A DNA stretch of 21,217 nucleotides from a virus, in the IMG/VR virus record IMGVR_UViG_3300046817_001084, positions 1 through 21,217 of that record. One strand, given 5' to 3'. Position numbers and translations under genes: made by a program. This document shows positions 11,876-15,565 of this stretch, piece after piece. Under the pieces are notes generated by a model. That model made no database searches. It was not told the DNA's origin and was given only the letters and a program-made list of their open reading frames with translations. How positions within the stretch are numbered: position 1 is the stretch's first letter; every line of letters begins with the position of its first letter.

Positions 11876-11949
11876 ATAGCATCCTTGCGTTTGTTGTCAC
11901 GCTAAGTGTAGTGTCAAGCTTCCTTTTGTGGGGTAGGGCACAATCTCTT

Positions 11950-13326
11950 ATGGCGTCCCCGCTCGGAAAGATCTCCGGTGTTGCAAAACCGCATGCGCCG
12001 CGGCCGCAGCCTGTTGCCCGCCAGTACTCCTTTACTGATCACCAGATAAATAACCCGAAAGCTCCGCCGCCCGGCGACCGCCTCGACGGCGAGCTCGATC
12101 GCGCGGTCAAGGCGATCGCCCGTACTATAGAGTGGGCCGGGGTCAGCCTCGGCCCCGACGGCGAGCTGCGCGACGGCGCCATCGGCCAAAAGCACTTCCA
12201 GCCCGAGCTCTTCGATCATATCGGCGCGACCGCCGTGCGCGAGGCGCAACGCCTGGCGGATGTCGCGGCCGACGCCGCGCGGCAGGCGCAGGCGGCGGCG
12301 GACATGGTTCGCGATGCCCTGCGCGTCGCGCTGGAACAGCATGCCGGGGTCGCCGCCACCGTGGCCCGCGCCGGCGTGGCGGCTCAAGACAGTGCCGACG
12401 ATGCTCGCGACGCCGCGTCCTCGGCCCAAGACGCGGCCAACTCGGCCGCGGCTGCGGCGAACTCGGCCGGCAACGCCGACGGATCCGAGGCGGTGTGCGT
12501 CGATTATGGCGTCTTGACCCAGGCCTGGGCCGAGCACATGCCGGACACCATCCCGCCGAACATCCTCGCCGTGATGGACGTGACCGGCGATCACTGGTCT
12601 TCGCGCTGGTGGGCGAACAACGCCGCCCAGATCGTCACCGACGCCTCGGGCGATGCGGTCTGCGCGATCCAAAGCTATTGGCTCGGCGCTTTTGCCAACC
12701 CGCCGACCCACACGACATGCGGCGATCCGGTCTCGGCCGGGGCGATGTACTGGAACACGACCTCCCAGACGACGCAGGTATACGACGGCGTGATCTGGCA
12801 TGACGTGGTGCAGCCCGCGCCCGCGACGGTCAGCGAATATCTCTATCTTCCGGCCGCGCCCACGACGGTTTTCACCGGCGTCGATTACCACGGCAACACG
12901 ATGGTTCTCGACGCGGTCAACGCCGAGATCGCGGTGTACTTGAACGGCGTGAAGCTGCTCAACGTGCTCGATTACACGCTCACCTCGAGCAGCGTGACCC
13001 TGACGAGCTCGGTGACGGTGCCCAGCACGGTCGAGGTCATCGGCCTCAAGAAGGTGAGCCCGGTCTCGGTGCCGCCCTCCGGCGTCAAGGTGAACACGTC
13101 GATCTGGACCTTCGACGGCGTCACGAAGACGTTCCCGCTGCAGAACTCGACGGGCGGCACGCTCACGCCGCCTGGCTCGGTCGATTGCATCGTCTCACTC
13201 AACGGCATCATCCAGGAAGCGGGCGGCGATTACACGACGCGCGCGGGCTTCATCGATTTCATCGTCGCGCCCGAAGCCGACGCCGATAAGTGGATGGTGG
13301 TCGGCCTTCCCGGGGGTGGTCCCTGA
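11950..13326 (+). CDS. Tail fibre / tail spike-like protein, N-terminal attachment type
   Basis: This 458-residue protein opens with a segment typical of phage fibres that dock on the virion (ARQYSFTDHQINNPKAPPPGDRLDGELDRAVKAI, read in two parts around residue 30-60). An Ala-rich coiled coil follows (about 110-175, with repeated AA-x-x-A and SAQDAANSAA). Beta-rich modules come next: AVYLNGVKLLN, then DYTLTSSSVTLTS (about 310-350), and a second similar module near 400-445 (CIVSLNGIIQEAGGDYTTRAGFIDF). Such modules form trimeric shafts. ATG 11950 is chosen over an earlier in-frame codon at 11911; the ribosome site is weak. It is the first gene of the late rightward block and overlaps the next by one base (TGATG). 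Confidence 0.75.
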   Translation: MASPLGKISGVAKPHAPRPQPVARQYSFTDHQINNPKAPPPGDRLDGELDRAVKAIARTIEWAGVSLGPDGELRDGAIGQKHFQPELFDHIGATAVREAQRLADVAADAARQAQAAADMVRDALRVALEQHAGVAATVARAGVAAQDSADDARDAASSAQDAANSAAAAANSAGNADGSEAVCVDYGVLTQAWAEHMPDTIPPNILAVMDVTGDHWSSRWWANNAAQIVTDASGDAVCAIQSYWLGAFANPPTHTTCGDPVSAGAMYWNTTSQTTQVYDGVIWHDVVQPAPATVSEYLYLPAAPTTVFTGVDYHGNTMVLDAVNAEIAVYLNGVKLLNVLDYTLTSSSVTLTSSVTVPSTVEVIGLKKVSPVSVPPSGVKVNTSIWTFDGVTKTFPLQNSTGGTLTPPGSVDCIVSLNGIIQEAGGDYTTRAGFIDFIVAPEADADKWMVVGLPGGGP

Positions 13327-13766
13327 TGGCAACGAACGCCTGGCAGCTCGCGAACGGCATCAACACCCCGACCATCGTGACGGCCGCGCTCGGCAAGATC
13401 ACGATGAGCGATCCGCAATATCTCGCGATCGCGGGCGGCAGCAACGGCGCGGCGCTCACGACGGACGGCAGCTCGCATATCACCTGGCGCGTGCCGGTCG
13501 GCGGCGCGGGCATCGCGGATGCGCCGCTCGACAGCACGTGCTATGGCCGCGAGAACGCGCTTTGGGTGAACGTCCTGCCCATGACGGGCGGTATTTTGAC
13601 CGGCTTGCTCACGCTGAGCGGCCCGCCGACCGCGCCGCTGCATGCCGCGACGAAAGCCTATGTCGACGCGCAAGTATCGCCGGTGACGGTCGATGGAACG
13701 TCGATCGCGGGCAATGGCACAAGCACGCCGCTGAGCGTCAAGACGATCGATTGTGGGTCATATTGA
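13326..13766 (+). CDS. Short tail-fibre module protein
   Basis: This 146-residue protein starts MATNAWQLANGINTPTIV at an ATG sharing one base with the preceding stop; GGGGTGG is upstream. It ends with one copy of the fibre module GGILTGLLTL...HAATKAYVDA seen three times in the next gene. It is probably a component of the same fibre complex. Its TGA stop (13764-13766) is in the same frame as the next gene, with no further stop in between. Confidence 0.7.
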   Translation: MATNAWQLANGINTPTIVTAALGKITMSDPQYLAIAGGSNGAALTTDGSSHITWRVPVGGAGIADAPLDSTCYGRENALWVNVLPMTGGILTGLLTLSGPPTAPLHAATKAYVDAQVSPVTVDGTSIAGNGTSTPLSVKTIDCGSY

Positions 13767-13782
13767 TGCGCGCCGGTATATA

Positions 13783-13799
13783 AGGAGGGCATAGCTATC
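13783..13799 (+). promoter_or_regulatory. Strong ribosome binding site upstream of a non-standard start codon
   Basis: AGGAGG at 13783-13788 is a near-perfect anti-SD match. Eight bases later is ATC (13797-13799), and two bases later is ATA (13791). No ATG, GTG or TTG in the downstream frame occurs until TTG 13854, which is 65 bases away and has no ribosome site. Confidence 0.75.
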
Positions 13800-15377
13800 G
13801 CCCAGACCATCCAGATCCTTAGGACGAGCACCAACGTCGCGCCGACGACGCTCTTGCCCGGCGCGCTCTCGGCCGAGCTGGGACCGCAGACGAAGCTGTG
13901 GATCGGCTCGGGCAGCGGTAATCGTTTATTGCTTTCGTCGGACCCGGCCGACAGCGGCGCAGCGGGCGGCGCTTATTTGAAGCTCGCGGGCGGCACCCTC
14001 ACCGGCGCGCTCACGCTCGCGGCCGATCCGGCGGCAGCGCTGCAGCCCGCGACGAAGCAGTACACCGACGCCAAGGACGCGCTGCGCTTGGCGCTCACCG
14101 GCGGCACCCTTACGGGCCCGCTCACTTTAGCCGCGGACCCAGCGGCGGCGTTGCAGCCTGCGACGAAGCAGTACGTCGACGCCATCAACACGACGCTGGC
14201 GGCGGCGGATACGACGATACGCAGCACGTATCTGCCGCTGGCGGGCGGCACCCTCACCGGCGCGCTCACGCTTGCGGCCGATCCCGCTGCGCCGCTGCAA
14301 GCCGCGACCCGGCAGTATGTCGACGCCAAGCCGTCCGGTGCGACGATCCTTGCTAGTGCGCCATCCTCGCCGACACCGGGGCAGCTGTGGTGGGACAGCG
14401 TCGGCGGTCAGCTTTACGTTTATTATAACGACGGCACGAGCCAGCAATGGGTGCCTGCTTCGACGGTGCCGGGCAACACGGCAAGCATAAATAACGTCGG
14501 CCGTAATCTTCTGCATAATGGCCGGTTCAACGTCCAGCAGCGCGGTGCCGGCACTTTCACTGCGCCTGCCTACACGGCTGATCGCTGGAGAACGATTGTC
14601 TCGGGCTGTACGGGAACAACGGCCCTATATCCGACAAGTGCGCCCGACGAAACGCTTCAATGGCAAGCCAATAACGTTTTCACCGGCTCGGCGACGGCGG
14701 GGGCGTTTTATTTCTTCACCCAAAGCATCGAGGGCGTCAAACGGCTCGGCGGCACAACCGTCACGATTTCCTTTTGGGGTTCGACGGGAGTAGGTTCGCT
14801 CAATCTCGGCGTTATTTTGTCTCAGGTGTTTGGGACTGGCGGCAGCCCGTCGCCGACCACGTTTTCAGCTGCAGTGACCGTAGTCCTGACGCCCGTATGG
14901 CAGCGCTTCACTGTGACGATCGCCGTGCCTTCGGCGAGTGGAAAAACGCTGGGCACGAACGGCGATGACAGCACAAATCTGATTTTCATCATGTCGCAGC
15001 AAGGCAGCACTATCGGCGTGCAGTCGGGTACGATCGCGCTGGCGGGCGTGCAGCTTGAAGTCGGCAGCGTCGCGACGCCGCTGGAGAAGCCCGACCCGCG
15101 CTATGATCTCGCCAACTGCCAGCGGTTTTATCAGACTGGTGGTCTCTCATTTTATGCGTATACGACGCTTGCGAGTGCGCCTAGTTCTGCGCTCGTTCCG
15201 CTTGCTGTGTCGATGCGAGCGCTGCCCACGCTTACAAGCAATTTTTCGACGTTAACAAATGCTACTGGGCAAGCTCTTAGCGCTCTCTCGCTGAACTCGC
15301 TTGCTGGCTATGTCCTGTCGGTTGCGCCGGGATATTTTAACGCGTCCGGCACCTTCACCGCTTCCGCCGACCTGTGA
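13797..15377 (+). CDS. Tail fibre protein with three GG-x-LTGALTL modules; ATC/ATA start proposed
   Basis: This is about 526 residues if it starts at ATC 13797, giving (M)AQTIQILRTSTNVAPTTLLPGALSAEL and then KLWIGSG. That is a conserved phage-fibre N terminus in which a hydrophobic strand, LxxGELxxE and KLWIG follow in order. Three copies of the module GGTLTGALTLAADPAA...ATKQYVDA follow (13989-14330). Next are a GQLWWDS/YVYYNDGTSQQWV strand, then a carbohydrate-binding-like beta domain that begins NLLHNGRFNVQQRG, with DRW and LEVGSVATPLEKPDPR near its end, typical of phage receptor-binding proteins. The final 80 residues are Ser/Leu-rich beta. The standard-codon alternative, TTG 13854, would remove the conserved N terminus. 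Confidence 0.75.
   Translation: MAQTIQILRTSTNVAPTTLLPGALSAELGPQTKLWIGSGSGNRLLLSSDPADSGAAGGAYLKLAGGTLTGALTLAADPAAALQPATKQYTDAKDALRLALTGGTLTGPLTLAADPAAALQPATKQYVDAINTTLAAADTTIRSTYLPLAGGTLTGALTLAADPAAPLQAATRQYVDAKPSGATILASAPSSPTPGQLWWDSVGGQLYVYYNDGTSQQWVPASTVPGNTASINNVGRNLLHNGRFNVQQRGAGTFTAPAYTADRWRTIVSGCTGTTALYPTSAPDETLQWQANNVFTGSATAGAFYFFTQSIEGVKRLGGTTVTISFWGSTGVGSLNLGVILSQVFGTGGSPSPTTFSAAVTVVLTPVWQRFTVTIAVPSASGKTLGTNGDDSTNLIFIMSQQGSTIGVQSGTIALAGVQLEVGSVATPLEKPDPRYDLANCQRFYQTGGLSFYAYTTLASAPSSALVPLAVSMRALPTLTSNFSTLTNATGQALSALSLNSLAGYVLSVAPGYFNASGTFTASADL
13989..14330 (+). repeat. Three copies of a tail-fibre repeat module
   Basis: Copies begin near 13989, 14100 and 14244. Each encodes GGTLTG(A/P)LTLAADPAA(A/P)LQ(P/A)AT(K/R)QY(V/T)DA, with high DNA identity including silent positions. 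That points to recent duplication or ongoing recombination. The linkers between them differ (about 11 and 22 residues), so the shaft may change length by module gain or loss. A fourth, diverged module lies in the preceding gene near 13588-13670. Confidence 0.85.
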
Positions 15378-15385
15378 GGGGCATC

Positions 15386-15565
15386 ATGGAGTACCAACTG
15401 GTCGCGACCCTTCCCGGCATGATCCAGAGCGTGCAGCGCCTCAGCGACGGCGCGTTCATCCCCTTCGATCCCGGCAACCGCGATTACCAGCAATATATTT
15501 CGTGGCTTGAGGACGGCAACACGCCTGATCCCGCGCCGACGCCGGTCGCGAAGGAGAAGCCATAA
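15386..15565 (+). CDS. Small fibre-associated protein
   Basis: A 59-residue protein, MEYQLVATLPG then VQRLSDGAFIPFDPGNRDYQQYISWLEDGNTP: the block DGAFIP-x-DP-x-N-x-D-Y-x-x-Y-x-x-W-L is familiar from small phage tail proteins and fibre-associated segments. GAGGGG precedes ATG 15386; a GTG at 15374 is also in frame but overlaps the upstream stop. It ends directly before the next fibre gene and its last codons contain that gene's ribosome site. Confidence 0.65.
   Translation: MEYQLVATLPGMIQSVQRLSDGAFIPFDPGNRDYQQYISWLEDGNTPDPAPTPVAKEKP

Follow-up and report, generated by a model that had tools for sequence, protein, structure and literature searches.

An ATC codon in the start position of a phage tail-fibre gene, preceded by 31 extra bases and a strong Shine-Dalgarno sequence

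The tail-fibre gene and its start region

The window (the whole 21,217 nt stretch analysed here, positions 1–21,217 of IMG/VR record IMGVR_UViG_3300046817_001084) carries a long gene that sits among tail genes, with the terminase large subunit gene downstream (Table 1). The predicted protein matches the PHROGs tail fiber profile phrog_4492 (E = 2.5e-50), and this match, together with the position among tail genes, bears out the first-pass annotation of the gene as a tail fibre. The profile likeness to PHROG 4492 and related phage tail fibres extends over residues 111–495, while relatives of the N terminus were found only in IMG/VR contigs. The N-terminal 59 residues matched no Pfam family, and no confirmed relatives were found in cellular genomes. 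At least one further tail-fibre-like gene is present in the window (11911–13326).

Table 1. Features at the start of the tail-fibre gene (window coordinates)
Feature	Position	Strand	Basis and remarks
Upstream tail-region gene	13326–13766	+	ORF; TGA stop 13764–13766 overlaps ATG 13766; TGATG also in contigs L002–L005
Patch more diverged from L002/L003 than its flanks, includes extra bases	13680–13830	+	Alignment
Five-codon mini-ORF, equivalent of the relatives' fibre ATG	13766–13783	+	Alignment; sequence
31 extra bases, absent in relatives	13769–13799	+	CGCGCCGGTATATAAGGAGGGCATAGCTATC
Shine-Dalgarno AGGAGG	13783–13788	+	Overlaps mini-ORF stop TAA (13781–13783); pairing −11.6 kcal/mol
ATC occupying the start-codon position	13797–13799	+	Sequence; alignment of relatives
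Tail-fibre gene	13797–15377	+	526 codons; conserved N terminus AQTIQILRTSTNVAPTTLLPGALSAEL

The first-pass annotation had pointed to an AGGAGG followed eight bases later by ATC, and these positions are exact; the frame from this ATC is open to the stop codon at 15375–15377. According to the sequence and the ORF list, it holds no ATG, GTG or TTG from the in-frame TGA at 13764–13766 up to TTG 13854. The in-frame third-base variants of ATG before that TTG are ATA 13791 and ATC 13797, 13809 and 13815, and only 13797 has the Shine-Dalgarno sequence at the proper distance. For ATC 13797 the predicted pairing energy to the 16S rRNA tail is −11.6 kcal/mol (a value matched by 0.7% of random window positions), as against −3.6 kcal/mol for ATG 13766 and +0.4 kcal/mol for TTG 13854. 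An AGGAGG lies 4–16 bases upstream of just one of the 1277 ATA, ATC and ATT triplets on both strands. No tRNA genes were found in the window, where a phage-coded tRNA with an altered anticodon was sought, nor was a structured leader (junction fold against shuffles, z 0.66).

TTG 13854 is the earliest in-frame standard start codon, and a start there would give a 507-residue fibre minus the first 19 residues. As had been stated at the outset, it has no ribosome site and would remove a conserved segment, one that is kept in all seven relatives described below, making this start very improbable.

Start codons in related viruses

The region was compared with a sister contig (L023, which is also L001) and seven further IMG/VR contigs related at the N terminus. 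Alignment with homologues, proposed earlier as a check, showed that the equivalent codon is the start in all seven, being ATG in six and TTG in one. In L002–L005 the fibre ATG overlaps the stop codon of the upstream gene (overlap TGATGGCGCAG, junction ...TACTGATGGCGCAGACG...), and in L030 and L031 (ATG) and L039 (TTG) the start follows a short intergenic stretch. The claimed conservation of the N terminus likewise holds in the seven relatives, with the aligned sequence (M)AQTIQILRTxTNxxPxxLLPG; this alignment establishes that the frame open in the window is truly that of the fibre, with its first codon at the start position. Read from ATC, the fibre has 526 codons, compared with 526–539 in L027–L029, and shows no other lesion. 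In its sequence the gene fits a near-cognate (ATN) start, in that it lacks an in-frame standard start with a ribosome site and the equivalent codon of its relatives is a standard one. The observation in this phage is genuine and unusual.

The 31 extra bases and their origin

A G-to-C change in an ATG had been offered as one explanation of the ATC, but the alignment shows no simple point change, as the old ATG persists at 13766–13768 and 31 bases follow. The window retains TGATG (13764–13768), continues with 31 bases ending in ATC, and then resumes with GCC CAG. Placement of the extra bases is ambiguous: they could alternatively be 13766–13796, with the old ATG changed to ATC, or consist of 28 bases plus a repeated ATG, the second copy of which became ATC. 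The AGGAGG is carried inside them and is placed for the ATC. With 31 bases added, a number not divisible by three, the old ATG opens a five-codon ORF, MRAGI-stop (ATG CGC GCC GGT ATA TAA), one frame off the fibre, and the fibre lies in the frame of the upstream gene. The extra bases cut the fibre off from its usual ATG in this phage and in one close relative.

Divergence from L002 and L003 reaches about 20–30% in the middle of the patch (about 13680–13830), against about 5% in its flanks. Between the window and L027, codons 2–14 show seven synonymous and two nonsynonymous changes (about 9 and 30 sites, respectively). These patterns suggest a recombination patch derived from an unsampled relative in which selection acted on the N terminus of the fibre. 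Pieces of the 31 bases, searched for in the fetched loci, on both window strands and in viral and genome contigs, were found only in the sister contig L023, and searches of plasmids and phages with the junction surroundings gave no source beyond L023. The flanking patch DNA likewise matched only L023, so no donor was found.

A similar segment, AAGGAGGGCATAGCTATGGC, lies before an ordinary ATG gene in the phage contig L024 (reverse complement, 120–142), and equals the extra segment except at the third base of the start codon. That contig is otherwise without a match to the window, and the likeness is probably a chance match. As AAGGAGGGCATAGCTATGGC precedes a normal gene, the 31 bases resemble a working, ordinary ribosome site.

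Comparison with the sister contig

L023 is 99.4% identical to the window over 7615 bases and differs from it at dozens of positions. It had been proposed to re-read base 13799; L023 also has C there, with identical 31 bases. The contig is metagenomic, and an error of sequencing or assembly at 13799 or at the junction might be suspected, but an identical junction and C in a second contig with so many differences elsewhere make this hardly credible. The two contigs have no difference across 13605–14518; comparing them therefore gives no test of selection at the junction itself, nor of its age. Over the fibre gene only T275M alters the protein; the remaining codon differences are silent, among them a TCG to AGC serine switch.

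Possible routes to the fibre protein

AUC is a very poor initiator and among the rarest start codons; in the study of initiation from all 64 codons by Hecht et al. (2017), near-cognates such as AUC reportedly reached no more than about 1% of AUG. The fibre must either start at a very poor codon or be hardly made. In a reconstituted E. coli system, IF3 disfavours weak third-base pairs, and no product formed at 1.5 µM IF3 when AUC was paired with the non-matching anticodon AAU or UAU, the natural anticodon CAU being excluded there (PMC10158994). A low yield is expected at AUC because IF3 rejects such pairs.

If the fibre is made at all, AUC initiation is the most likely route to it. The lineage would have acquired, by recombination or insertion, a new initiation region of 31 bases with a strong Shine-Dalgarno sequence serving the codon directly before the conserved second residue, this codon being ATC rather than ATG. 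Inefficient initiation by fMet-tRNA at AUC 13797 would yield a fibre that begins normally, with (M)AQTIQIL. Ribosomes would come to the old ATG 13766 from the UGAUG where it meets the upstream gene; these would make MRAGI, terminate at UAA 13781 within the Shine-Dalgarno sequence, be captured by it after termination and restart at AUC 13797. A review describes how post-termination 70S ribosomes locate nearby Shine-Dalgarno sequences (PMC5972666), and among the work cited in PMC11194080 is 70S sliding after a stop, by which ribosomes come to initiate at non-canonical codons. The layout here is of this kind, with TAA 13781–13783 overlapping AGGAGG and ATC beginning 14 bases past the stop, and reinitiation after MRAGI-stop is probably the way in which AUC is reached. 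AUC initiation is further favoured by a Shine-Dalgarno sequence and spacing that fit 13797 and no other in-frame codon, by a frame intact at full length with constrained codons, and by the junction occurring in two contigs that differ elsewhere; the coding constraint may be older than the extra bases. From the sequence we infer AUC initiation, reinitiation and low yield, and the combination of a recombinant or inserted initiation region, an inefficient AUC start and reinitiation after MRAGI-stop is judged slightly more probable than not. A stronger version, in which a compact control unit (the five-codon mini-ORF, the Shine-Dalgarno sequence within its stop, and the AUC restart) replaced the ATG and holds fibre production deliberately low by termination-reinitiation as a selected trait, is doubtful.

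The main rival to AUC initiation is a damaged allele, possible on a tentative view, in which the extra bases shifted the old ATG out of frame, or brought an ATG that later became ATC, and fibre production is negligible in this lineage. Host range would then depend on the other fibre-like proteins of the phage, such as that encoded at 11911–13326, or the lineage would be defective. Poor AUC initiation fits such damage (related data in PMC10158994), and L023 is a close relative of the window, identical to it around the junction, so that the lesion may be recent. A damaged allele is harder to reconcile with a full-length fibre frame free of a second lesion, with a strong Shine-Dalgarno sequence positioned exactly for the codon, and with fibre changes between window and L023 that are almost all synonymous, though perhaps older than the extra bases.

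Recoding is improbable, whether by bypass or +1 shift from ATG 13766 or by readthrough of UGA 13764. Matched AUA codons on either side of UAA and GGAGG would allow a hop from the AUA before UAA to AUA 13791 (MRAGI-AIAQTIQ), but with about four in-frame triplets available, chance alone should give a match in about 6% of cases by our own estimate, and the Shine-Dalgarno sequence is already accounted for by initiation. There is also no stimulating structure (z 0.66 against shuffles), no conserved signal and, with five codons before the stop, no long nascent-peptide signal of the T4 gene 60 kind. A +1 shift before UAA (MRAGI-KEGIAIAQTIQ) would take place without an evident slippery P-site codon. 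Readthrough is suggested by the coincidence of the upstream and fibre frames, with UGA 13764 the sole stop between them, but the upstream gene of the relatives also ends in a stop codon. All three of these recoding routes, and the TTG start as well, are less likely than AUC initiation or a damaged allele.

Likeness to known systems

The AUU start of E. coli infC limits expression (Brombach and Pon 1987, Butler 1987, via PMC9845219). Like near-cognate ATN starts of the infC type, as described there, the fibre start departs from AUG at the third base, has a strong Shine-Dalgarno sequence and presumably gives a low yield. It differs in being AUC, with initiation that is predicted, and in belonging to a phage structural gene that has no known autoregulation and whose relatives have ATG, hence no conserved device. 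The TGATG overlap, and a mini-ORF stop on the Shine-Dalgarno sequence shortly before the next start, are shared with coupled termination-reinitiation in bacterial and phage operons (PMC5972666); the differences are the proposed restart at AUC and the presence of a five-codon ORF in between. Matched codons flanking a gap that opens with a stop (AUA-UAA ... AUA) recall the bypassing of T4 gene 60 (PMC11194080), but the gap is short and lacks both a stable structure and a long nascent-peptide signal, and the resemblance lies within chance.

Annotation programs accepting ATG, GTG and TTG would make this fibre 19 residues short. A strong ribosome site before AUC in a full-length structural gene offers a case in nature for testing whether ribosomes that reinitiate accept near-cognates, and whether the start codon tunes fibre dosage. 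If the allele is simply damaged, it shows how recombination at a stop/start overlap breaks fibre modules.

Other variation in and around the fibre gene

Within the fibre gene (13982–14330) there are three imperfect direct repeats of about 90–110 bases (LAGGTLTGALTLAADPAAALQPATKQYVDA), the number or order of which apparently varies between relatives. Two stretches of L029 (7216–7338 and 8513–8600) both match the C-terminal sequence of the window fibre, and this contig seems to carry two tandem fibre copies. In the gene after the fibre, about 18 differences between the window and L023 fall within 40 bases (15491–15529) in nearly identical surroundings, forming a small recombination or hypervariable patch.
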